A stretch of DNA of 64,000 bases. Source: Lutibacter maritimus. GTDB lineage: Bacteria; Bacteroidota; Bacteroidia; Flavobacteriales; Flavobacteriaceae. A program made the position numbers and the translations under genes. The notes under the pieces were generated by a model, which had not been told where the DNA came from, searched no databases, and worked only from the letters and a program-made list of their open reading frames with translations. The number at the start of each line of letters is the position of its first letter. Within the stretch, counting starts at the first letter, position 1. This document shows positions 15,583 through 27,723 of this stretch, piece after piece. The stretch is from the NCBI RefSeq assembly GCF_900116115.1, contig NZ_FOZP01000006.1:186001-250000 (forward strand), written 5' to 3'.

Positions 15583-18027
15583 ATGAAAACTCAACCTACA
15601 TACGAAGAATTACAAATACAGCTTTCTGAATTACAAAAACTATATAATAATCTTCAGCTTGAATTTGATTTACAAATTAAACAAAATGAAAAACGTACTA
15701 AGGAATTACTTAAAGCCAAAGAACATGCTGAAGAAAATGAAAAACGCTTTAAACTGTTATATGATAACGCTCCATTAAGTTATCAATCATTAGATAATAC
15801 TACACGAATTATTGATGTAAATAATACGTGGCTAGAAACAATGGGGTATGAAAGAGAAGAAGTTATTGGTCGCTACTTTCGGGAATTTATGACTCCAAAA
15901 TCTGCAGAACTTATTAAAGAACGGTTCCCAACTTTCATAAAAAATGGTGAAATTCATAATTATGAATTTGAAATGGTAAGAAAAGACGGCACTCATTTTA
16001 TGGTTTCTTATGAAGGTAAAATAGGATGTGATGAATTTGGCCAATTTCATCATACACATTGTATTTTTTCTGACATTACACATCGTAAACAAGTAGAAGA
16101 AAAATTAAATGAGGCCAATGAATTTAATCAACAAGTAATTAATAGTGCTCAAGAAGGCTTTGTTGTATATAATTTAAATAAAAAATATATAGGTTGGAAT
16201 CCCTATATGGAAGAATTAACAGGAATAAAAGCGGCAGATGTTTTGGGTAAAAACCCCACAAAAGTATTTCCGTTTTTAGAAGGAAGTGGCATTCTTGCAA
16301 ATGTTGAAAAAGCTCTAAAAGGTTTAAAAACAGACATTGTAGAAACCTCTTTTAACATTACAACTACAAATAAAAAAGGTTGGGTAGTAGATAGAATTGC
16401 TCCGTTATATAACCATAAAGGCAAAATTATTGGAGCAATTAGTACAGTTAATGATATTACTGCTCAAAAAATAGCAGCATTAGAACTAGTGAAAGCAAAA
16501 GAAAAAGCAGAGCAAAGCGAAAAATATTTATATACAATTATAAATAATATTGCCGACCCAGTATTTGTAAAAGACGATGAAAGCAGAATGTTAGTAGTAA
16601 ATGATGCATTTTGTAAATTATTTCAATGTTCTAAAAATGATGTTATTGGAAAAACACTTGCTGAGGATGTTTCCCTTGAAGAAAGAAAGAATTTTCTTAA
16701 AATTGACAAACAAGTATTAATGAGCGGCATTGAAAGTATTAATGAAGAACCATTTACTTTAGGAGACAATGAAACTCGCACACTCCTTACAAGTAAAAAA
16801 AGGTTTATAAATGATAATGGCGACAAATTTTTAGTTGGTGTAAGTCACGATATTACGAGCCTAAAAATTATTGAAAATGATTTAAAAATTGCAAAAGAAA
16901 AAGCAGAACAAAGCGATCAATTAAAATCTGCTTTTTTAGCAAATATGAGTCACGAAATACGCACACCAATGAATGGTATTTTAGGATTTTCAGAATTATT
17001 AAAAAACCCTGAACTTTCCGGTGAAAAACAACAACAATATATCCATGTTATTGAAAAAAGCGGAGCGCGAATGCTTAATATAATTAATGATATAATTGAT
17101 ATTTCTAAAATTGAATCTGGATTAATAGAACTTGACTTAAAAGAATTAAATATTAATGAACAACTAGAAGATATTTATACGTTTTTTAAACCCGAAGTTG
17201 AAAAAAAAAGTGTTCAATTCCTTTGTAATAAGCCATTACCTTTAGAGGCGGCAATTATTAAAACTGATAAAGAAAAAATGTATGCAATACTTACAAATCT
17301 TGTAAAAAATGCTGTTAAATTTACTGATAAGGGTTGTATAGAATTTGGTTATCTTATAAAAAATGAAGGAAAAAACTCAGTACTAGAATTTTATGTGAAG
17401 GATACAGGAATTGGTATTTCAAAAAATAGACTTGATGCCATATTTGAACGTTTTATTCAAGCAGATATTACCGATAAAATGGCACATCAAGGAGCTGGAC
17501 TAGGCTTGGCAATTTCAAAAGCATATGTAAAAATGCTTGGTGGAAAAATTTGGGTTTCATCAGAACAAAAAACAGGCAGTACATTTTATTTTACTATTCC
17601 TTTTAAAACCAAAGATACAATTACTAATACAGCAACAGAATTAAAGGGCATTAAACTCAATACAACAAATTCTTCTGAAAAATTAAAAATATTAATTGTA
17701 GAAGATGATGAAGCTTCTGATATGCTTCTTTCCATTGCCATTAAAGATTTAGCCAAAGAAATAATTCATGCAAAAAACGGCATTGAGGCTGTAGAAGCTT
17801 GCAAGAAACATGAAGATATTGATATTATATTAATGGATATTCAAATGCCCGTAATGGATGGTTATGAAGCGACTAAACAAATACGAAAATTTAATAAAAA
17901 AGTACAAATTATTGCCCAAACTGCCTTTGCTTTAGAAGGTGATATGGAAAAAGTAATGGCTGTAGGTTGTAACAATTATATTACCAAACCAATTAAAGTT
18001 AGCGAATTAAAACAAATGATTAAATAA
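15583..18027 (+). CDS. Hybrid sensor histidine kinase (PAS-PAS-PAS-HisKA-HATPase-REC)
   Basis: I chose the ATG at 15583. The frame is open to a TTG at 15505, but the extra residues show no conservation and the chosen start gives the usual TYEELQIQLSELQ coiled-coil. The 814-residue protein then has three PAS domains (about 65-175, 180-305, 310-430 of the chosen protein). A dimerisation/phosphoacceptor helix follows with the histidine in FLANMSHEIRTPMNGILGF, then a HATPase domain (NLVKNAVKF; DTGIGIS; GAGLGLAISK). It ends with a receiver domain carrying the phospho-aspartate in IILMDIQMPVMDGYEATKQI. No membrane helix is visible, so it is probably cytosolic, sensing through PAS ligands. Its 3' end overlaps the convergent gene by 8 bp. 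Confidence 0.95.
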   Translation: MKTQPTYEELQIQLSELQKLYNNLQLEFDLQIKQNEKRTKELLKAKEHAEENEKRFKLLYDNAPLSYQSLDNTTRIIDVNNTWLETMGYEREEVIGRYFREFMTPKSAELIKERFPTFIKNGEIHNYEFEMVRKDGTHFMVSYEGKIGCDEFGQFHHTHCIFSDITHRKQVEEKLNEANEFNQQVINSAQEGFVVYNLNKKYIGWNPYMEELTGIKAADVLGKNPTKVFPFLEGSGILANVEKALKGLKTDIVETSFNITTTNKKGWVVDRIAPLYNHKGKIIGAISTVNDITAQKIAALELVKAKEKAEQSEKYLYTIINNIADPVFVKDDESRMLVVNDAFCKLFQCSKNDVIGKTLAEDVSLEERKNFLKIDKQVLMSGIESINEEPFTLGDNETRTLLTSKKRFINDNGDKFLVGVSHDITSLKIIENDLKIAKEKAEQSDQLKSAFLANMSHEIRTPMNGILGFSELLKNPELSGEKQQQYIHVIEKSGARMLNIINDIIDISKIESGLIELDLKELNINEQLEDIYTFFKPEVEKKSVQFLCNKPLPLEAAIIKTDKEKMYAILTNLVKNAVKFTDKGCIEFGYLIKNEGKNSVLEFYVKDTGIGISKNRLDAIFERFIQADITDKMAHQGAGLGLAISKAYVKMLGGKIWVSSEQKTGSTFYFTIPFKTKDTITNTATELKGIKLNTTNSSEKLKILIVEDDEASDMLLSIAIKDLAKEIIHAKNGIEAVEACKKHEDIDIILMDIQMPVMDGYEATKQIRKFNKKVQIIAQTAFALEGDMEKVMAVGCNNYITKPIKVSELKQMIK

Positions 18028-19489
18028 CATCAAGCGCTATATTTTCAACACGTTTAATTCCTTTTCTGTTCATAATAATTCTATATCGTTTAAACTCAAT
18101 TCCTTGTTCTGAATAAAATTTTTGAATTACGTTTATGTGATAAATTTTATTGCCAACTCTATTAATAATTTTGCCTTTTTTTAAAATAGAATAACTTTTT
18201 TTGGGATCATCCATTTGGGTAATAAATCGATTAAAACTAATTCGTGTAATGTCAACTAAACTATTTAATCGATTATCAGAAATTTCTTGACCAAATTTTT
18301 TCGGATAAATCTCAATTTTTCGCTTGTATTGAATTATTTGTTCTCCATAAAAATCATAATCCGCATCCAAATATCCATCTTTAATACGGTGTTTTTTAAC
18401 TTTTGGTCCTAATTTTTCGAAAGGGACAAATACAAAATTCTCTTTTGTGATACCAATTAAATTATTTTGAAGATCTTTAATTTTTATCTTATAATCATAA
18501 AAAAAAGAACTTGCTTTACTAATAAATAACAACCCAATTGAAGCTTTAATTCTATCTTTAAACATATAGCCAACAACTAATGCAATAAAAAATGGAAGTG
18601 TAAAATTTCCGTAAACTTGTTGATAATAAAATGCTATCCCAGTTGAAAAAACCATAGCTAAACCTGCAGCAATTGCAAAAACAGATTGCTCAACAAAAGC
18701 GCCATCTTTTCTTACATCTCGAGTTAAAAACAAAACTCCATCAATATATTTTTTTAGTTGACTTCTTTTATGAAGCAACGTTTCATCATAATAATCATCA
18801 TCTTTAGAAGTATCAAAATTTTGTGTTTTTCGATACTCTTGTTCTTCTTTTATAAACTGAATAATTATTTTTAAATCCGACTTTTCAGTACTTATTTTTT
18901 TGAAATGTTCTAATAATTGTATGGTGTAATAGTTGGATATATTGCTTAAATACTCATCGCCTAGTTTTATAATATTTTTTATATTTTCATCTAAACTTGA
19001 GTTTTCGATTATTGGAATTTGTGTTCTGTAAATATGAAGAATTTCTTTTAATTGATTAAAAAAATCTTGATTAGAAAGTTGTAAATCTGCCAGTTTTTGG
19101 AACTTAAAATAGTGTGTTTGTAATTTTAACGAGTTATTTAAAATTGCTCCCAACAATTTTACTTTTGCCTCAAAATCTAAGATATTTTTTTTAGTTGATT
19201 TTTCCTTAACAATCTTTTTTACACTTTTTATAAATAAATTTAAAGGTCCTGTTTTTAAATTTATGATCTCTTCTAAAGTGTATTCCGAAGCATTATATCT
19301 AATGTAAACCTTTACATCATTATAAAATTTTGTTTTGGTATATGTTTGATTATTAATATTTAAACCATTAGGAATAAACAAATAGGTAATAGTATCATAT
19401 TTTGTTTTTTTTCTTTTTGAAGTATTTTCATAAATCGATTTAATTTCTAAAGAAAAATTATCATGAATTTTTACACTATTTTGAATCAT
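18020..19489 (-). CDS. Unknown two-helix membrane protein, last gene of the phosphate operon
   Basis: I do not recognise this 489-residue protein. It has a long charged, mainly helical N-terminal half (1-265), two transmembrane segments at about 268-318 (FAIAAGLAMVFSTGIAFYY and FFIALVVGYMF), and a C-terminal beta-rich domain (about 335-489) rich in Lys, Arg and Tyr. The N-terminal half might be a helical sensor domain, but no known motif is evident. It follows the SLC13 transporter gene by 15 bp and ends the nine-gene minus-strand series, so a role in anion uptake or its regulation is likely. Its 3' end overlaps the hybrid kinase gene. A relic of a second copy lies at 15228-15395. Confidence 0.75.
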   Translation of the reverse strand: MIQNSVKIHDNFSLEIKSIYENTSKRKKTKYDTITYLFIPNGLNINNQTYTKTKFYNDVKVYIRYNASEYTLEEIINLKTGPLNLFIKSVKKIVKEKSTKKNILDFEAKVKLLGAILNNSLKLQTHYFKFQKLADLQLSNQDFFNQLKEILHIYRTQIPIIENSSLDENIKNIIKLGDEYLSNISNYYTIQLLEHFKKISTEKSDLKIIIQFIKEEQEYRKTQNFDTSKDDDYYDETLLHKRSQLKKYIDGVLFLTRDVRKDGAFVEQSVFAIAAGLAMVFSTGIAFYYQQVYGNFTLPFFIALVVGYMFKDRIKASIGLLFISKASSFFYDYKIKIKDLQNNLIGITKENFVFVPFEKLGPKVKKHRIKDGYLDADYDFYGEQIIQYKRKIEIYPKKFGQEISDNRLNSLVDITRISFNRFITQMDDPKKSYSILKKGKIINRVGNKIYHINVIQKFYSEQGIEFKRYRIIMNRKGIKRVENIALDVI

Positions 19490-19504: not shown

Positions 19505-21094
19505 TTAAAAAAGTCCGTTAGGTGTTATATCTAGCCATTTAAAATAAGTCATTGCCATTACAATTGAAAGTATCCAAGCTAAAATTTGCATGGTTATTCC
19601 GTATTTAAAAGTATCTGCCCAACTATAATGATTAGTAGAATACAACAATAATGCAGGCTTGCTATTAAAAGGCAATGTATACACATGCTCTATTAAAAAG
19701 GCTACTGGCAACGTTAAACTAATAATTTCAAAACCAAATCTTGTTGCAATTCCTATAGCAATTGGAATAAAAATCATAGCACGCATTGTTTTACTTTGAA
19801 ATACCAATGCGCTAAAAACCATTCCAAAGGTTAATACCATATAAAGCAACCAAAAAGGCGTATTGTCGCTTATTCCTAAACTATCAAACATTGAGTTTAC
19901 TGCAATACTTGGCAAATCGGTTACATTAAATCCAGCACCTAAAGTATAAGCTCCGGCAGAGAATAATAATAAATGCCAAGGAATATCAACATCATTCCAA
20001 GATACAATTCCAATTTTTGGAAGTAAAGCAACTATCGCTCCAACAAATGCAACTGCTGTTGGACTTATTCCGTGGTATTTATCTGTTACCCAAAGTGCTA
20101 AAATAGAGACAAATATAAAAATAGATTTAATTTCATTAAATGAAACTTTACCCATGTTGTGTAATTCTGTTTTTAACGTATCCATTCCACCTTCAATAGA
20201 AGGCGTTTTCTCTTCTTTTTTAAGCGGAAAAATAATTTTTGTTCCAATAATCCATCCTAAAATCATTAAAATCATTGCCCCAGGAAATGCAGCAATCATC
20301 CAATCGGCAAAAAATATATCGCTACCAATAGCTCCTGCAATTAGTGATGCCGCCAATAAATTGGCTCCAGAACCTGTTAAAAAAGCACTGGCTCCCATAT
20401 TAATTTGAAATAGATTTTGTAGAATTATATTTCGCCCAAAATTATTTCTATTCCCATTTGATGCTCCATAAACAGCAGCAATCACCATAAATATTGGTAA
20501 TAAAATAGCTGCTTTTGCAGTTGTAGCTGAAATAAATATAGATAACAACACATTTATAACAATAAAACTTAAAAATATGGAAGAAGCATTTTTTCCAAAC
20601 TTTAAAATAAACCAAAGTGCAAATCTTTTTGCAACGCCAGTTGCAACCAACATACTTGCCAAAATAAACGACAAGATATTTAACCACATTACTTCGTGAC
20701 CTAATTGCGCATAAGCAACTTTCTCTGGTAAAACACCTGTCAATACCAACGCAATAATTAAAATTAAAGAAGTTAAATAGTTTGGAATTGCTTCGGTTAT
20801 CCATAAAATTAATGAGGCGATAAATATGGCCAACATTGCTCTATTAGACTGAATAAAATTGTTTATTCCAATTTTATCAAAATTAGCCAATGCACTTTTA
20901 CTTAAACTCTCTGAATTAAAATTTTGTAAAAACGACAAATCAAGCACAAACATGATGAGTATGAATGAAATAATTGCCAATGGCCCGCCAATAATGGCAA
21001 ATACTTTTTCTACCTTGGTTAACTGCCTTTTTGGAAGTTTTTCCATTCGGTAGTTACTCATGTCCAATACATTTTTATACATATTATTTTTCAA
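19505..21094 (-). CDS. SLC13/DASS family sodium:anion symporter
   Basis: The 529-residue inner-membrane protein has about eleven to twelve hydrophobic helices. DASS-type features include ITEAIPNYLTSLILI near 98, ISATTAKAAILLPIF near 187 at the place of the SNT motif, and TGSGANLLAASLIAG near 240. DASS proteins import dicarboxylates, sulfate or phosphate with Na+. In fungi an SLC13 domain with an SPX domain forms the phosphate transporters Pho87/90/91. The neighbours (PiT, DUF47, CYTH, phosphate-type porin) make phosphate a plausible substrate here, but this is inference from context. Confidence 0.85.
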   Translation of the reverse strand: MKNNMYKNVLDMSNYRMEKLPKRQLTKVEKVFAIIGGPLAIISFILIMFVLDLSFLQNFNSESLSKSALANFDKIGINNFIQSNRAMLAIFIASLILWITEAIPNYLTSLILIIALVLTGVLPEKVAYAQLGHEVMWLNILSFILASMLVATGVAKRFALWFILKFGKNASSIFLSFIVINVLLSIFISATTAKAAILLPIFMVIAAVYGASNGNRNNFGRNIILQNLFQINMGASAFLTGSGANLLAASLIAGAIGSDIFFADWMIAAFPGAMILMILGWIIGTKIIFPLKKEEKTPSIEGGMDTLKTELHNMGKVSFNEIKSIFIFVSILALWVTDKYHGISPTAVAFVGAIVALLPKIGIVSWNDVDIPWHLLLFSAGAYTLGAGFNVTDLPSIAVNSMFDSLGISDNTPFWLLYMVLTFGMVFSALVFQSKTMRAMIFIPIAIGIATRFGFEIISLTLPVAFLIEHVYTLPFNSKPALLLYSTNHYSWADTFKYGITMQILAWILSIVMAMTYFKWLDITPNGLF

Positions 21095-21154: not shown

Positions 21155-21625
21155 TTACCAATTTTTATATGGCGTTTTCATTAACATCGAATTGTAATAC
21201 TTGACTTGCCCTGTTACTTCCTCACCTAACCAACTCGGTTTTTCAAAATTTTCATCTTCTGATGAAAGTTCTATTTCAGCAACAACCAAACCTTCATTAT
21301 CTCCATAAAATTCATCAACTTCAAAAGTATGTTCACCAGATTTTACATTGAAACGTGTTTTATCAATTACACCTGGTTCACAAATTTTTAATAGCTGATT
21401 TACCTCTTCAACAGCAATTTCTTTTTCCCATTCGTAACGCGATGCGCCAGATTCATTTCCAATCCCTTTAATTGTTAAAAACCCTTTTTCTCCTTTAATA
21501 CGAACACGTACCGTTCTTTCTGGAATTGATGATAAATAACCTTGGGTAATTCTCATTTTTGCTAAAGCTTCAGTTTTAAAAGCATCGCTTTTTACTAAAA
21601 ACTTTCTTTCAATTTCTTGTGCCAT
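21155..21625 (-). CDS. CYTH domain protein (class IV adenylate cyclase/triphosphatase fold)
   Basis: The 156-residue cytosolic protein is a complete triphosphate tunnel metalloenzyme domain. It starts with the hallmark ExExK (E4, E6, K8 in QEIERKFLVK), followed by RVRIKGEKGFLTIKG, EWEKEI, IDKTRFNV, FEVDEFYGDNEGLVVAEIEL and a C-terminal helix. Short bacterial CYTH proteins of this type usually hydrolyse inorganic tripolyphosphate or related triphosphates rather than make cAMP. It lies 2 bp from the neighbouring CYTH-like gene and within the phosphate operon, which supports a polyphosphate-related substrate. Confidence 0.9.
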   Translation of the reverse strand: MAQEIERKFLVKSDAFKTEALAKMRITQGYLSSIPERTVRVRIKGEKGFLTIKGIGNESGASRYEWEKEIAVEEVNQLLKICEPGVIDKTRFNVKSGEHTFEVDEFYGDNEGLVVAEIELSSEDENFEKPSWLGEEVTGQVKYYNSMLMKTPYKNW

Positions 21626-21627
21626 AA

Positions 21628-22269
21628 TTAATTTGCTAGTGGTTTATTAATCCAACCTATTACTCTTTTTATTGCTTGTAAATAGTTTATATTTTCAACG
21701 CCTTCTAATTTACAATCTGCAATTGTTTTTTTGATATCTTCTAACTCTGTAGATTCAGAATTAATAGTAACTACTTTTGCTCCGTTTATTAAAACATTTC
21801 CAACTTCACATAAAGTATTGTTTACCATATACCCAAAACGTTGCTTGTAAACTCTAACTCCTTGCAAATCTGGATGTGCATCTATAATTGCCATAAACTC
21901 ATCAAAAGTGTAAACATCTTTATTAAAGGTTGGTATTTTTACTTTAAATGCAGGAAATACTTCTTTTAATAACACTTCTTTTGCAATTGGGAATTCACCT
22001 TTCATTAATGGATTCCATTGTTCTAAGCCATCAACAGTTTGCACGTAGGTTTTAATATCCATTTTACCATCGCGTATTTTGGTGTTATTTATATCGTTTG
22101 TTTTAGATAAAATATAAATTTCTTCGGATTCTCTTTCCCAAACTTTTTCAGGAATTGGCACTGAAAATCTGGACATTCTTTTAGCAGATTCTTCAAAACT
22201 TTGTCCGAAACTTCTAAACTCAAAACGAGGTTTAGATATTTCACCTATTTTCATTTCTGGTTTTGTCAT
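21628..22269 (-). CDS. CYTH-like protein, divergent
   Basis: The 213-residue protein has no clear database family that I can name, but its strand pattern fits a CYTH/triphosphate tunnel fold. A first strand KPRFEFRSFG carries an acidic residue. The motif EIYILSKTNDINNTKIRDGK and the MDIKTYV strand supply the Arg/Lys positions. The segment VRVYKQRFGYMVNNTLCEVG gives basic residues and a glutamate on later strands, and a C-terminal helix ends WINKPLAN. The gene abuts the canonical CYTH gene with a 2-bp gap, so the two may work together or form a heteromer. Evidence for the fold is by pattern only. Confidence 0.6.
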   Translation of the reverse strand: MTKPEMKIGEISKPRFEFRSFGQSFEESAKRMSRFSVPIPEKVWERESEEIYILSKTNDINNTKIRDGKMDIKTYVQTVDGLEQWNPLMKGEFPIAKEVLLKEVFPAFKVKIPTFNKDVYTFDEFMAIIDAHPDLQGVRVYKQRFGYMVNNTLCEVGNVLINGAKVVTINSESTELEDIKKTIADCKLEGVENINYLQAIKRVIGWINKPLAN

Positions 22270-22287: not shown

Positions 22288-23040
22288 TTAAACTGGTTTT
22301 TTAAATATGTACAGTTTAGCCTCCGCATCACTTACTATATAAATTTTATCGTTACTAACTGCAATTCCTTCCGCTTTAATTACATTAATTGGGTAACTTT
22401 TTATAAGGTTACCCTCTAAATTACACTTATTAATTGTTCTACTTTGATCGCTAACAATCCATAAATTATCAGTGGCGCTTTCGTGAAAAACCCCTGAATA
22501 ATCTGAAGCAAAATTTAATGTAGTAGAGGTTTTAATGGTGTAATTTGGATTTAACCTTATTAATAATCCTGGATCTTTTTCATTTAAAATAAATATGGTT
22601 TCATCATTAAAATTATACGCTACACCTTCTAACCCACTATTTGCTGTGGTGTTATTGTAGTCAATTTTATGTTTATTAAAATTTCCTGTTTCCATATCAT
22701 ATTCTACTACTTCTTTTGTTCTTTCTTCAACAACCAACAACTTAGTATTGGTAAATACTGAAATACCTTCTAAATCATTTCCAGAATATTCAAAAGTTTG
22801 CAGCACATCTCCAGCAGTAGATAATTTGTATATTTTATTGGTGCTATCACTTACGGTGTATAAAATTGTTCCATCGTTATTAATTGCTAAACCCGAAGGT
22901 TCTAACACATTAATTTTGTATGAATTAATGAGTTCTAATCCATTATTTACTGGAAAAACTTCATTATTTTTAGAACAAGACACAAAAAGAATGAATATCA
23001 CACTTAGTATTACACCAATGTTTTTGATTTTTAGTAGCAT
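22288..23040 (-). CDS. SdiA-regulated-type beta-propeller lipoprotein
   Basis: The 250-residue protein has a lipoprotein signal (IFILFVSCSKN, cysteine near 22). It then has a repeated six-bladed propeller pattern typical of the SdiA-regulated family (PF06977): LEPSGLAINNDGTILYTVSD, NDLEGISVFTNTKLLVVEER, NSGLEGVAYNFNDETIFILN and IKAEGIAVSNDKIYIVSD. The family is related to phytase-like and esterase-like propellers that act on phosphoesters or bind metal. It would sit on the cell envelope. Its place in the phosphate operon makes a surface phosphoesterase or binding role attractive but unproven. Confidence 0.8.
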   Translation of the reverse strand: MLLKIKNIGVILSVIFILFVSCSKNNEVFPVNNGLELINSYKINVLEPSGLAINNDGTILYTVSDSTNKIYKLSTAGDVLQTFEYSGNDLEGISVFTNTKLLVVEERTKEVVEYDMETGNFNKHKIDYNNTTANSGLEGVAYNFNDETIFILNEKDPGLLIRLNPNYTIKTSTTLNFASDYSGVFHESATDNLWIVSDQSRTINKCNLEGNLIKSYPINVIKAEGIAVSNDKIYIVSDAEAKLYIFKKPV

Positions 23041-23641: not shown

Positions 23642-25009
23642 TTAAAAATCAATTTCTATTCTAAATGCTGCCATTCCAAAATCATCACCACCATTACCAT
23701 CTGCATCAAATACATTTGTTGGATCTTTTGTTAAGTTGCCATCAGCATCATAACCCGCATATAATTTACCTTTACCGTTCGCAAATCTATCGTTATTATT
23801 ATAAATATAATTCAACATAAATTTCACGTTTGGATTTACATGATAGTTTAAACCAACAGTATATCCTTCTGCTGAACCACCATAAATTCCATTATCAAAA
23901 TCATTTGCATCTACAAAATCATATCTAACAGCTAATTCTAAATCACCATATTCTTTTCCTCTTGTAATTCTTGTAAATTCACCTTCTTCTGCATTGTAAT
24001 TATGATGACCCCCAAATAATAAATAGGCTCCTTGCACATAAAAACCATTAAAATTGATGGCATCTAAATCATCATTTCTATTTACTGTAACTAACTTATA
24101 TTCACTTTGAAACATAAATCCTTTATATCTACCCGCTAATTCAAAGTTTACCATTGTGTTATTATCAACATTTAAAATATCGTCAGTATCTATATATTTT
24201 TTTCTGTTGATTGATGAGTGAGATCTTGTGCTAAATCTGTAAGAATAAGGAATTTCTAAATCTACTTTTGGAGTTCTATACGTACCTGCAATTCCCAGAT
24301 GTAATACTTTATCCTCATCATTTATAGGAATAAAAACAGCTCTACCAGTTAATGAATATCCATCATCTACACCCAAATCTTTATTGTTGTCTTGAGTAAA
24401 AACTACTTCTTCATTATCTCCAACTGTACTAAAATGTAATCCTGCTGTTATTAAGTATTTATCCGCCCAATGGTTAAATTGAAATCCCAAATGGCGTGAA
24501 GGATCAAATTTAGACATAAGGGAACGTTCTGTAAACGTTAAATATCTAGAAGTTGTAGTGGTTTCCATACCAAAACTTTCTTTAAAATGTCCTGCTTTAA
24601 TATTCCAGCTATCAGAATCTGGAGTATATTTAACGTAAGCATCTTTTAATTCTACAGCCGAACCAGAAAAATCTAAATCAATTTCTCCATACCAATTATT
24701 CCATAGTTCAGCTTTCATAGCAAACCTTGCTCTTCTAATGGAAGCTCCGTTTCCAATTGGATTAAATGCATCATTAGAAAACATTTCGCCATCAAACTGA
24801 ACGCGGTTATCCATCCAAATAGAATAACTTTTGTCTGCTGATGTAAATTTTAAAATTCCATCTTGAGCTTCAGCATTTAGCGGCTGAAAACGAACTGCTT
24901 GTCCATACTGATTTATCCTTATAGAATCAGTTTTAGTTCCTTCTTGAGCAACAGATCCAATACCATATAGGATCATTACTACTAGCAATGTGTAAAATTT
25001 GTTTTTCAT
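23642..25009 (-). CDS. OprO/OprP-type phosphate-selective porin
   Basis: The 455-residue outer-membrane protein has a signal peptide (about 1-21, ending VAQEG). It has a 16-stranded porin pattern with alternating amphipathic strands, for example RARFAMKAELWNNWYGEIDL, VKYTPDSDSWNIKAGHFKE and YFMNYIYNN-like turns, and ends with FRIEIDF, a C-terminal aromatic as needed for barrel insertion. The family (PF07396) includes the Pseudomonas phosphate and polyphosphate porins OprP and OprO. Substrate specificity depends on arginine rings that cannot be judged here. The gene lies 30 bp from the PiT transporter gene. Confidence 0.88.
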   Translation of the reverse strand: MKNKFYTLLVVMILYGIGSVAQEGTKTDSIRINQYGQAVRFQPLNAEAQDGILKFTSADKSYSIWMDNRVQFDGEMFSNDAFNPIGNGASIRRARFAMKAELWNNWYGEIDLDFSGSAVELKDAYVKYTPDSDSWNIKAGHFKESFGMETTTTSRYLTFTERSLMSKFDPSRHLGFQFNHWADKYLITAGLHFSTVGDNEEVVFTQDNNKDLGVDDGYSLTGRAVFIPINDEDKVLHLGIAGTYRTPKVDLEIPYSYRFSTRSHSSINRKKYIDTDDILNVDNNTMVNFELAGRYKGFMFQSEYKLVTVNRNDDLDAINFNGFYVQGAYLLFGGHHNYNAEEGEFTRITRGKEYGDLELAVRYDFVDANDFDNGIYGGSAEGYTVGLNYHVNPNVKFMLNYIYNNNDRFANGKGKLYAGYDADGNLTKDPTNVFDADGNGGDDFGMAAFRIEIDF

Positions 25010-25039: not shown

Positions 25040-26779
25040 TTAAAGTTTACTTACAATTTCAGTTAAGTTTTCTTCGCGTTTTAAGCGCATTTTCTTTCTA
25101 AGTCGATGTCTATTTACTTCTACACTTTTCGTAGATATGTTTAATATGGAAGCAATTTCTTTTGAACTTAAATTAAGGCGAATTAAAGCCGCCAAACGTT
25201 GTTCATTTTCAGATAAATCTGGAAACCTGTTTACAAGCCTCAAATAAAAATCTGCATTTAGTTCATTTACATAAAAATTAAATTTTTCTCGTTCTTTATC
25301 AATACTTAAATTATCAATAATCAACCTTTTTAGGGTTATTAATTCTTCTGCTTTTACTTCTGGTTTTGATATTATTTTATCAATTTTAATTTTTAATTTT
25401 TCAAGAAATTGATTTTTTTGAATAATGCTTAAAGCAATTACCATTTGTTCCTTTCTTTTAAATTCTATCTGCTTTTCTAACTTGGCATTTTCTGTATTTA
25501 CTTTTTGTATTTCAGCATTTAACATTTTTTCTTGAGATTCATATTTAAGTAACCTTTCAGATGAAGCATCTTCTTTTGTTTGAGAAGACGTACGAACCAA
25601 ATTAACAAGCATTACAACTAAAGCAATTACTAAAACAATGATAATTAAGAACAATAAAGGTTGGTATAAATTAACAGAGGTATTCATTTGTGGGTGTATA
25701 ATAACATCATTTATTTTATTAGTTATTATATTATTTTCATTTTGAACAACAACCATTTTAAATACATTGTTCATAAAAAATAAAGAAACAAATGTGGTAA
25801 AACCAGCAATTATAGGCGTTGCAATCCATCCTATTGAAATTTTACCTAAAACGCCATATTGTATTCCTCTTCCTCCTTTTAATAAACCAATTCCAACAAT
25901 AGCTCCTACAATTGCCTGAGAACTTGAAACAGGAACCAACATAATTCCTGGTAAACCTACACTTTGAAACAAGTTTGATAGTGTTGTTGAAGAAAAAACA
26001 AATAACACTAACGAGTGCGATAAAACCACCACCAAAGCAGCTTCTGCAGAAAGTTTCATTAAATTATTTCCAACGGTCATCATTACTTTTTTAGAATACG
26101 TAATAATACCTATTGCTATAGATGCACCACCAACTAAAAATAAAAGTTGAACAGCATTTAATGAGAAAAATCCAAAGTTTAATGTAATTTCTGGAAGTGA
26201 TGGGATAAAAACACCTACAACATTAGATACATTATTTGCTCCTAAACTATATGCACCAAAAGCACCTACAATTAAAAGTCCGTATTTTAAATATGCATCT
26301 AATTTTAAAAGATGAATTCTTCTTTTATCAAGAAAATATTTTAAGAGTAAATACAAAACTATTGCAAAAATCCCTCCTAAAATCGGTCCTGCAACCCAAG
26401 TGCTGACAATTTTGCTCAACACAGCTAAATCCGTTGGATTTCCAGAATAGAAATTCCACCCTATTATTGCTCCAATAATTCCTTGTGAAGTAGAAACTGG
26501 TAATTGCAACTTGGTCATCCAAAACACCGTTAATCCAGCACAAAGTGCCACTGTAAAAGCACCTCCAATTGCATTTATTGAACCTAAATCGCCCAAAGTT
26601 TGTGAAGCTCCATAACCTTGTAAAACTGCACCTATAATCACAAAAACAGAGGCAATTACAACTGCAGATTTAAATTTGACCATTTTAGTACCAACAGCAG
26701 AACCAAAAATGTTGGCAGCATCATTTGCGCCTAATGACCAACCTAAAAATAATCCGCTTGTTAGAAAAAATAAAAACAT
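25040..26779 (-). CDS. PiT-type inorganic phosphate transporter fused to a LuxR-type HTH domain
   Basis: The 579-residue protein joins a membrane transporter to a DNA-binding-like domain. Residues 1-345 are a PiT phosphate:cation symporter with both signatures, GANDAANIFG (17-26) and GANNVSNVVG (180-189), and about ten helices. A further helix lies at 374-394 (LLFLIIIVLVIALVVML), then a coiled-coil at about 404-446. The C-terminal 521-579 is a LuxR/GerE helix-turn-helix: NLSSKEIASILNISTKSVEV and NRHRLRKKMRL. This same ending is common in flavobacterial membrane-tethered TPR-LuxR regulators. The reading frame is continuous without frameshift. It could be a transporter that also senses phosphate and regulates genes. 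The DUF47 gene precedes it by 16 bp. Confidence 0.92.
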   Translation of the reverse strand: MFLFFLTSGLFLGWSLGANDAANIFGSAVGTKMVKFKSAVVIASVFVIIGAVLQGYGASQTLGDLGSINAIGGAFTVALCAGLTVFWMTKLQLPVSTSQGIIGAIIGWNFYSGNPTDLAVLSKIVSTWVAGPILGGIFAIVLYLLLKYFLDKRRIHLLKLDAYLKYGLLIVGAFGAYSLGANNVSNVVGVFIPSLPEITLNFGFFSLNAVQLLFLVGGASIAIGIITYSKKVMMTVGNNLMKLSAEAALVVVLSHSLVLFVFSSTTLSNLFQSVGLPGIMLVPVSSSQAIVGAIVGIGLLKGGRGIQYGVLGKISIGWIATPIIAGFTTFVSLFFMNNVFKMVVVQNENNIITNKINDVIIHPQMNTSVNLYQPLLFLIIIVLVIALVVMLVNLVRTSSQTKEDASSERLLKYESQEKMLNAEIQKVNTENAKLEKQIEFKRKEQMVIALSIIQKNQFLEKLKIKIDKIISKPEVKAEELITLKRLIIDNLSIDKEREKFNFYVNELNADFYLRLVNRFPDLSENEQRLAALIRLNLSSKEIASILNISTKSVEVNRHRLRKKMRLKREENLTEIVSKL

Positions 26780-26795
26780 AAATTATATTTAAATA

Positions 26796-27446
26796 TTACA
26801 TTCTAGTTTTTATTACTAATGATGATAGCATTTTTGCCACAACTTCTGCTGCGTCTGAAACTTCTTCGACATGCAATGTGAAATAACGTAAGTGTATTTT
26901 TTCACTTAGTTTAAGATGCGGCATTTCTTTAAATACTTTTCGCTTAATATTGGTTGCTAACTTATCAGTTTCACGTTCGTAAAAAATAACTTTTTGAATT
27001 TTATCTTTTACCAAGTTTTGGTCAGTAAAAAAAGCGCGAGCAGCAGGAATTACATTTTCGGCAGATTTTACCGAGATGTTTAAAAGGCGAGAAAAATCAT
27101 TTTTTATTTCTTCAGGAAGAAAAGGTCTTTCAACATCAAATTGACTTAAATTATTTTTAACCTTATCAATAATATCATCCACTTTTTCAAGCAAGTTTAA
27201 AACCTCACTTGCATAATTTGGGATTAATGAATATATGTATAAATCATTCTCAATTTTTCTAATTATTGAATCGGCTTTACCTTCAAGTACTTCAATAATT
27301 TTTAGGTTATTTTCAAATTCGGTGAAATTTCCTTCTAAATAATTATTAACTCCTTCTTTAAAATTTAGAATACCTAACTCAACTGTATCAAAATACTCAT
27401 CAATGTTAATAATAACATTTTTTGAAGTTTTAAATATTTTTATCAT
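26796..27446 (-). CDS. DUF47 family PhoU-like protein
   Basis: The 216-residue all-helical protein is of the DUF47/PhoU-like family, commonly encoded next to PiT transporters and thought to modulate them. Visible features are IDEYFDTVELGILNFKEGV, the conserved acidic segment IEVLEGKADSIIRKIEND near 48-65, and YERETDKLATNIKRKVF near 151. It begins the nine-gene series, with a -7 element upstream at 27463-27470 on the minus strand. Confidence 0.92.
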   Translation of the reverse strand: MIKIFKTSKNVIINIDEYFDTVELGILNFKEGVNNYLEGNFTEFENNLKIIEVLEGKADSIIRKIENDLYIYSLIPNYASEVLNLLEKVDDIIDKVKNNLSQFDVERPFLPEEIKNDFSRLLNISVKSAENVIPAARAFFTDQNLVKDKIQKVIFYERETDKLATNIKRKVFKEMPHLKLSEKIHLRYFTLHVEEVSDAAEVVAKMLSSLVIKTRM

Positions 27447-27462: not shown

Positions 27463-27470
27463 CAAAATTA
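27463..27470 (-). promoter_or_regulatory. -7 element TAATTTTG of the DUF47-PiT operon
   Basis: The octamer matches TAnnTTTG on the minus strand and lies 16 bp before the DUF47 start codon. No exact -33 TTTG was found at the right distance, which is common for regulated promoters. Confidence 0.5.
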
Positions 27471-27723
27471 TGTTCAACTTAAACAATTTAGAATGATATT
27501 TATCAGTTTGAGAAATGATAGATATTTAATTGAGAGTTTTTTTAAATTTAATGTAACTGATTTTTAGATTAATATATTTTATAAGTAAAGTTTTTTATTT
27601 AGCATTAATAATTATATGAGAGTTTAATTAAAGTTTTTTGATTAGCGAAAAATTTTGTTTTAAGCAAAATATTAATAGGCTATAGCATTAAAATTAGCTA
27701 TTTAAAATAATTATTATTTATAA

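Follow-up and report, generated by a model that had tools for sequence, protein, structure and literature searches.

A PiT-family transporter fused to a LuxR-type DNA-binding domain in Bacteroidota, and candidate operator repeats before its operon

How can a cell read nutrient flux from its own transporters? The question is open, and the classical phosphate signal crosses several proteins. It is raised by a gene of Lutibacter maritimus in a 64,000-nucleotide stretch of its genome (the window; positions 186,001 to 250,000 of contig NZ_FOZP01000006.1, assembly GCF_900116115.1; whole genome, 3,484,703 bases in 20 contigs). A model working from the letters and their open reading frames had noted there a PiT phosphate transporter joined to a LuxR/GerE-type helix-turn-helix (HTH) and had proposed a one-protein phosphate sensor-regulator (the original prediction). 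Is the fusion real, how old is it, and which DNA might it bind? We find that a PiT core, an extra transmembrane helix, a stalk and a LuxR-type HTH are one old, conserved polypeptide, and that phased direct repeats of AAACTCTACA stand in the promoters of the fused operons, a new observation. The protein would be a membrane-integrated, self-regulating one-component regulator whose sensor is the whole PiT transporter, a reading to which we give a probability of about two in three and in which DNA binding, signal, substrate and transport are inferred.

The frame of 579 codons has no internal stop, as originally read; it lies on the minus strand, and the plus-strand reading of 25040-26779 is full of stops. 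A Pfam profile search, which had been proposed as a check, placed both halves over their cut-offs: PF01384 at 4.6e-54 (184.1 bits versus 33.7) and PF00196 (GerE) at 6.7e-07 (29.3 bits versus 23.5), removing the concern that the HTH score might be too low. The signatures GANDAANIFG and GANNVSNVVG indeed stand at residues 17-26 and 180-189. The CysP sulfate-permease model scored 69.5 bits, far under its cut-off of 400. Among five relatives with intact HTH, PF00196 passed in L051, L055 and L081 and stopped just short of 23.5 in L064 (22.4) and L061 (21.8). A receiver domain (PF00072), as NarL/FixJ response regulators have, had no match in the fusion protein at E ≤1 in the Pfam search. An AlphaFold2 model from a 48-sequence input (mean pLDDT confidence 79.3, predicted TM-score 0.60, residues 349-365 below 50) consists of the transporter, one unbroken helix at 372-470 that spans the extra transmembrane helix and the coiled coil, both of which had been called from the letters, and HTH helices at 524-563. 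Foldseek matched the core to TmPiT (6l85; E 1.3e-12, root mean square deviation [rmsd] 8.9, TM-score 0.66 by target length and 0.46 by query length) and the tail to the LuxR-type regulators StyR (1yio), EL222 (8a5r) and FixJ (5xt2), with probabilities of 0.99-1.00 and weak E-values of 0.24-0.28; a profile built from the 48 sequences matched 1yio (2.1e-05), 3clo (5.8e-05), EsrB (7vim, 1.1e-04) and NarL (1je8, 0.009).

On which side of the membrane does the tail lie? Positive residues number two after the first transmembrane helix, five in loop 150-165, three in 228-245 and two in 300-308, are absent from loops 54-71, 113-117, 195-208 and 264-285, and number one in hairpin 90-97; linker 340-372 has two positive and two acidic residues. 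This lysine/arginine pattern points to an outside end of the PiT core and an inside location of the tail, which the extra helix would therefore return to the cytoplasm.

The proposed survey of such fusions and their neighbors was run on the best 80 loci from one scan of named genomes, which is not a census. Of these, 47 run through the HTH region (in L077 it is decayed), in 4 the contig stops short of it (L060, L069, L076 and L082) and 29 are unfused; L042 lacks its last two codons at a contig end. In the window, a DUF47 gene lies upstream of the fusion gene and a porin gene downstream. The occurrence of this fusion in 47 loci of other genomes, at 44-94% identity, excludes chance or misassembly, including the frameshift or assembly error that the original prediction had named as its possible undoing. 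The closest named relative among these loci is that of Lutibacter sp. MAG13 (94%). In a sample of 199 genomes of the family, the full-length fusion occurs in four, including the source genome (60-61% identity in the other three); all other matches listed cover the tail only (query start at least 325) at 28-41% identity, in other proteins that are mostly open frames of about 540-1050 aa. In a phylum sample of 395 genomes, a full-length match at E ≤1e-60 occurs in the source genome only, and 12 other genomes have matches that stop before the HTH. Because full-length matches are so few in both samples, the fusion is uncommon, yet it is widely spread: its carriers, mostly metagenome-assembled genomes, are labelled Flavobacteriaceae, Salinivirgaceae, Bacteroidales, Lentimicrobiaceae, Saprospiraceae, Chitinophagaceae, Prolixibacteraceae, Petrimonas and one Melioribacteraceae.

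Where did the tail come from? The tail-only matches support its descent from Bacteroidota membrane regulators, which agrees with the likeness to flavobacterial regulators noticed at the outset. Two were scanned with Pfam: a Reg_prop/Y_Y_Y protein with GerE just under the cut-off, and a TPR protein with a weak Sigma70_r4-type HTH match and no GerE match. These regulators, with Reg_prop/Y_Y_Y or TPR domains followed by a transmembrane segment, coiled coil and HTH, share a homologous C-terminal module with the fusion; where the fusion has a transporter, they have a beta-propeller or TPR domain as sensor. To our knowledge, known PiT proteins lack an HTH.

Both ends of the protein are conserved. 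An alignment of 48 fused sequences varies least in the HTH core (mean column entropy 0.76 bits), the PiT core (0.98) and the HTH as a whole (1.23) and more in residues 448-520 (2.17), the stalk (2.43), the extra helix (2.55) and the linker (2.96); K551, S552, E554, R557 and R559 are kept in 47 of the 48, L077 being the exception. For six pairs of the Lutibacter clade, the ratio of nonsynonymous to synonymous rates (dN/dS) is 0.04-0.11 in the PiT core, 0.01-0.10 in the HTH and 0.28-0.85 in the linker, rough values because dS exceeds 1 in several pairs; they indicate that the HTH is under purifying selection, as is the transporter. The fusion of L077 (L077:9998-11734) has lost the HTH recognition residues and any GerE match, and its porin and motif are also gone; we read it as a regulator lost in nature.

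A midpoint-rooted tree of 83 PiT cores, of which 52 were labelled fused (the 4 cut loci and L077 included) and 31 not, needs five changes of the fusion label, three of them forced by starred branches. Unfused L088, L097, L090 and a 17-row Bacteroidales clade sit among fused rows, and 11 further unfused rows form a starred group, of which eight have labels of other phyla and three came with the phylum sample. One old fusion followed by several losses is the simplest reading of this tree, whose deepest branches have only 54% support. Hence the domain capture of the original prediction fits the descent of the tail but would not be recent. Unfused relatives terminate after the core, or after the extra transmembrane helix and a short tail. 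Stop-codon readthrough or a split HTH was rejected: no HTH was seen by eye in three forward frames up to 900 bp downstream of 23 unfused PiT genes (the contigs of L090 and L114 end within about 180 bp). As a separate observation, unfused PiT proteins of other phyla (L091, L100, L105, L107 and L119, the last from the phylum sample) have a C-terminal extension of about 140 aa, with an HRWQL/YKWQL-like motif in several and no Pfam family on the extension in the three scanned (L091, L105 and L119).

Which DNA might such a tail bind? In every PiT locus listed, a DUF47 match ends at most 175 bp upstream of the PiT gene; we took as upstream region the 250 bp before the DUF47 gene, whose start was set by script (open reading frame length near 216 aa). 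Expectation-maximization on 45 fused upstream regions gave AAACTCTACA with a log-likelihood of 156.6, versus 25.6 for one shuffled set. From 29 thinned fused loci came AACTCTACAT, a shifted form of AAACTCTACA, at 107.4, versus at most 37.8 in 12 dinucleotide-shuffled sets; the same search yielded another word in 24 unfused loci (51.7) and reached 33.0 in a control region of 25 loci. With a matrix built from 32 non-Flavobacteriaceae fused loci, 14 of the 17 fused loci of Flavobacteriaceae and none of 25 unfused ones scored over the 99th percentile of shuffles.

The motif follows the HTH. Among 75 loci with at least 200 bp upstream (site, at least 7.5 bits; contig-cut loci counted as fused and intact, L077 as without HTH), it occurs in 46 of 49 with intact HTH and in 1 of 26 without; 46 loci have both, 3 the HTH only, 1 the motif only (L106) and 25 neither (Fisher 1.5e-15, uncorrected for kinship). 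The porin gene lies downstream in 43/43 scorable loci with intact HTH versus 1/24 without (loci with no match and under 2.5 kb of downstream sequence were left unscored). The single case, L088, has kept the porin and lost both HTH and motif, which dissociates the motif from the porin.

Sites of at least 7.5 bits lie mostly on the coding strand, eight fused loci having one reverse site as well and 1 of 26 unfused loci having any site, and most repeats stand 60-210 bp before the -7 element. Their spacing is regular: 63 gaps between sites, near-duplicates included, have a 10.9-bp period with R of 0.80 (maximum of 500 null sets, 0.41), and 35 gaps from the 29 thinned loci, whose promoters remain homologous, give R of 0.84 at 10.95 bp, a value reached by 0 of 1,000 random sets. 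With the window and L077 set aside, 24 of 48 fused promoters contain pairs at 9 bits, 30 in all over 12,480 bp; the 1,519,980 bp elsewhere in the loci contain 7, and none of 25 unfused loci has one.

In the window's own promoter, the match to TAnnTTTG, which we take to be the consensus of the Bacteroidota-type -7 element, is TAATTTTG. TAnnTTTG lies within 75 bp of the start in 35/50 fused and also in 15/25 unfused loci, so it does not itself mark the fusion. In the 300 bp upstream, matches to at least 7 of the 10 letters of AAACTCTACA occur only at 166, 155, 123 and 69 bp before TAATTTTG; the slots of the relatives are 164-171, 152-156, 122-126 and 68-74 bp. Consensus sites are present in Lutibacter litoralis (L040) and Mariniflexile maritimum (L044). 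Shuffling this promoter filled all three tested slots in 1 of 5,000 trials and two or more in 34. A second candidate, the palindrome TGATNNNNATCA, occurs exactly in 13/17 Flavobacteriaceae fused loci, about 59-75 bp before the DUF47 start (carriers: the window, L036-L042, L046-L048, L056 and L076), and presumably overlaps the place of the -33 element. It was rejected as operator because only one other fused locus listed has an exact copy (L083, at -112), and so it cannot explain the remaining loci.

How might the circuit work? The PiT core would end outside the cell membrane, the extra helix would place the HTH in the cytoplasm, and the HTH, dimerized through the stalk, would stay at the membrane and bind the AAACTCTACA repeats, which are its likely binding place and a candidate operator. 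Bound there, the fusion would activate its own operon; activation rather than repression is supposed since the sites lie upstream of the -7 element. HTH binding or activation may depend on whether the PiT core is loaded or transporting, the DUF47/PitR-like partner may modulate the signal of the core, and the whole would make a compact, local, self-regulating uptake loop beside the cell's Pst-PhoU system. We lean only slightly toward a bolder proposal: a secondary transporter that doubles as a promoter-binding transcription factor, its PiT part reading nutrient flux and the whole molecule docking from the membrane on the phased repeats of its own promoter, in an ancestral, private feedback loop of Bacteroidota. 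A role as regulator is made more likely by the operator-like motif, which tracks the presence and absence of the HTH; to that extent the sensor-regulator idea is supported, and the AAACTCTACA repeats can now be proposed as the DNA target that was then called unknown.

Several results weigh against this reading. The non-Flavobacteriaceae matrix passes only 20/33 loci of its own group (L077 included), and a matrix from 17 Flavobacteriaceae loci, again at the 99th percentile, recovers 10/33 other fused loci and 9/17 of its own, with 0/25 unfused. Only three HTH/motif contrasts stand on starred branches; all three agree (sign test, p 0.25), and because independent contrasts are so few and homology of the loci inflates the association, the Fisher value exaggerates how independent the loci are. 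In 24/48 fused loci no pair reaches 9 bits, and site positions measured from the -7 element show only weak periodicity (R 0.36 at 10.5 bp, best 0.39, with no null run). The window itself, L036 and L038 are below the motif threshold, and 7-or-more-of-10 matches are common across the window (440 on the minus strand), so the window's motif case is one of register alone. Most LuxR-type HTHs recognize palindromes; the motif is a direct repeat, and the Flavobacteriaceae loci do have a palindrome. Finally, the second PiT repeat reads GANN, and transport may differ accordingly.

This last point bears on the possibility, unlikely in our view, that the PiT part has become a sensor that no longer transports, as in Ks-Amt5, with uptake left to the sodium:anion symporter of the operon. 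The precedent is described in PMC5764959; besides that symporter, the genome has two other PiT proteins and a Pst system, and GANN replaces GAND in the second repeat. However, the first repeat reads GAND and the second GANN in the window and every one of the 83 PiT rows, whether fused or not (both repeats of TmPiT read GAND), so GANN does not track the fusion, and the core remains under strong constraint. We also note that most of the 83 rows read PVS[ST][ST]Q where TmPiT reads P[VI]STTH; ion coupling or substrate of this GANN subfamily may differ.

PhoB-type regulators use direct repeats of about 11 bp, the PHO boxes, which the repeats found here resemble in period. Might the repeats then be the site of a separate PhoB-type response regulator, the fused HTH acting elsewhere or serving only to dimerize? 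A Pst-PhoU operon is present in the same genome. On the other side, at 32 pst-type loci (three of the source genome's own, two of them overlapping), no coding-strand site reaches 10 bits, and the other strand has 4 versus 16.4 expected from shuffles, in a control where only 13 of the 32 show at least 100 bp of upstream noncoding DNA and most genomes are not known carriers of the fusion. The 18-kb Pst region of L. maritimus itself has just three scattered sites of at least 9 bits. Of eight strict pairs in 20 fused genomes, five stand at the fused operon and three elsewhere (L164, L169 and L170, that of L169 inside a coding frame), versus four for the reversed control; the strict pattern, too strict for most fused promoters, gauges specificity and not sensitivity. 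L088, which kept its operon and lost HTH and motif together, also speaks against a PhoB-type site, and we regard this explanation as improbable.

A little less probable still is that regulated proteolysis frees the HTH from the membrane to act as a soluble regulator. The linker and stalk are long and variable, and release would ease access to DNA; on the other side, membrane-tethered regulators such as CadC act, as far as is known, without release. That the whole is an artefact of frameshift, chimeric assembly or a chance HTH score is next to impossible, given 47/80 fused loci, an HTH over the Pfam cut-off and its dN/dS of 0.01-0.10.

We return to the fusion as a regulator acting from the membrane and ask how it compares with known systems. 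Transporter-kinase fusions are known, CbrA among them. Ks-Amt5, in which an ammonium transporter is joined to a histidine kinase, binds without translocating and likewise uses a transporter domain as sensor of a fused signaling domain (PMC5764959); its output is a kinase, whereas that of the fusion is a DNA-binding domain. The nearest PiT/SLC20 systems are those with a PitR/Pap (DUF47) partner, such as Staphylococcus aureus PitA-PitR and TmPiT (6l85), with the same transporter family and fold and, here, a DUF47 gene just upstream. In S. aureus, PitR is linked to its partner PitA and exerts control over PhoPR (PMC13170248), a precedent for signaling by a transporter with PitR; output there runs through a separate two-component system, whereas here the HTH is part of the transporter. 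ToxR/CadC-type regulators, too, are single proteins with a sensor, a membrane anchor and a DNA-binding part, but they have an N-terminal DNA-binding domain, one transmembrane helix and a periplasmic sensor, in contrast to the C-terminal LuxR-type HTH and polytopic transporter of the fusion; CadC is controlled by the permease LysP (review PMC5936718), whereas in the fusion the permease itself is the proposed sensor.

We found no description of a PiT-HTH protein in the open-licence PMC literature (subscription papers and database domain-architecture pages lay outside this scope), and the conserved operon did not turn up there either. Nor was such a fusion seen in passages of PMC3466318, which surveys LuxR proteins in Actinobacteria, of PMC8115612, on the PHO regulon of a Flavobacterium, and of PMC6978683, which reviews sensing linked to transporters. 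If the proposal is right, transporter, receptor and regulator, classically PstSCAB-PhoU-PhoRB, are folded into one protein with a PitR-like partner, and a transporter-to-DNA class would join the known transporter-kinase receptors. With transporter and DNA-binding output in one molecule and a predicted site at hand, the link from transporter state to transcription becomes directly testable.

Table 1. Features of the fused operon and its promoter (window positions)
Feature	Position	Strand	Remarks
PiT-HTH fusion gene	25040..26779	minus	579 aa plus stop, ATG start; PF01384 and PF00196; structure model; 47 fused relatives in 80 loci
PiT core, residues 1-340	25760..26779	minus	GANDAANIFG, PVSTSQ, GANNVSNVVG, PVSSSQ; profile, fold and alignment evidence
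Extra transmembrane helix, residues 374-394	25598..25660	minus	within modelled helix 372-470; lysine/arginine loop pattern
Coiled-coil stalk, residues 395-447	25439..25597	minus	helix in model; variable sequence, mean entropy 2.43 bits
LuxR/GerE-type HTH, residues 521-579	25043..25219	minus	PF00196 over cut-off; core entropy 0.76 bits (48 sequences); dN/dS 0.01-0.10 (six pairs)
DUF47/PhoU_div protein (PitR/Pap-like), first operon gene	26796..27446	minus	PF01865 1e-19; 16 bp before fusion gene
Porin_O_P outer-membrane porin	23642..25009	minus	PF07396 4.4e-49; 30 bp after fusion gene
Probable lipoprotein, 174 aa	23099..23623	minus	no family; call by eye; conserved in part of the loci
SdiA-regulated/phytase-like beta-propeller protein	22288..23040	minus	PF06977 7.7e-27, PF13449 2.9e-08
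213-aa protein, predicted triphosphate-tunnel fold	21628..22269	minus	adjoins CYTH gene; matches no family in Pfam or NCBIfam
CYTH-domain protein (triphosphate tunnel family)	21155..21625	minus	PF01928 8.2e-17
DASS/SLC13-type sodium:anion symporter	19505..21094	minus	TIGR00785 1.1e-58
489-aa protein, end of conserved gene run	18020..19489	minus	no Pfam family
Candidate operator copies AAACTTTAATTAAACTCTCA, 11-bp direct repeat	27617..27636	minus	166 and 155 bp before -7 element; 7/10 letters of AAACTCTACA each
Candidate operator copy AAACTTTACT	27584..27593	minus	123 bp before -7 element; 8/10 letters; slot as in relatives
Candidate operator copy AAACTCTCAA	27530..27539	minus	69 bp before -7 element; 8/10 letters; slot as in relatives
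TAATTTTG, candidate Bacteroidota-type -7 promoter element (TAnnTTTG)	27463..27470	minus	
Palindrome TGATAAATATCA	27494..27505	minus	common to Flavobacteriaceae loci

The fusion comes with a conserved Bacteroidota operon, whose order is DUF47, PiT-HTH, Porin_O_P, lipoprotein, SdiA-regulated protein, 213-aa protein, CYTH protein, DASS symporter and 489-aa protein; judging from these protein families, its theme may be phosphate or polyphosphate. The SdiA-regulated protein gene is present in part of the loci. The symporter was found in 32/80 loci, many being too short to reach it, and lies upstream in L090; the 489-aa protein was found in 19/80, mostly at the operon end, the copy of L050 standing elsewhere on the other strand. 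For the 213-aa protein 35 relatives were found, and the 14 that were aligned are 72-97% identical to it. Fold comparison only is the source of its predicted triphosphate-tunnel fold: its model (pLDDT 84.5) matched AtTTM3 and thiamine triphosphatase in Foldseek with probability 1.00, TM-scores of 0.44-0.51 and rmsd of 6-8. As a sequence relative of CYTH it was rejected (hhalign probability 0.4), and a sequence search of PDB gave only an unrelated match (E 0.73).

On another contig of the same genome lie a porin-pstSCAB-phoU cluster and two further PiT proteins of about 750 aa, most of these gene names having been assigned by eye. The two PiT genes stand in tandem near pstSCAB-phoU (L160:3191-7865, minus strand), and the C-terminal part of their products, long and soluble, resembles PhoU/DUF47 when read by eye.

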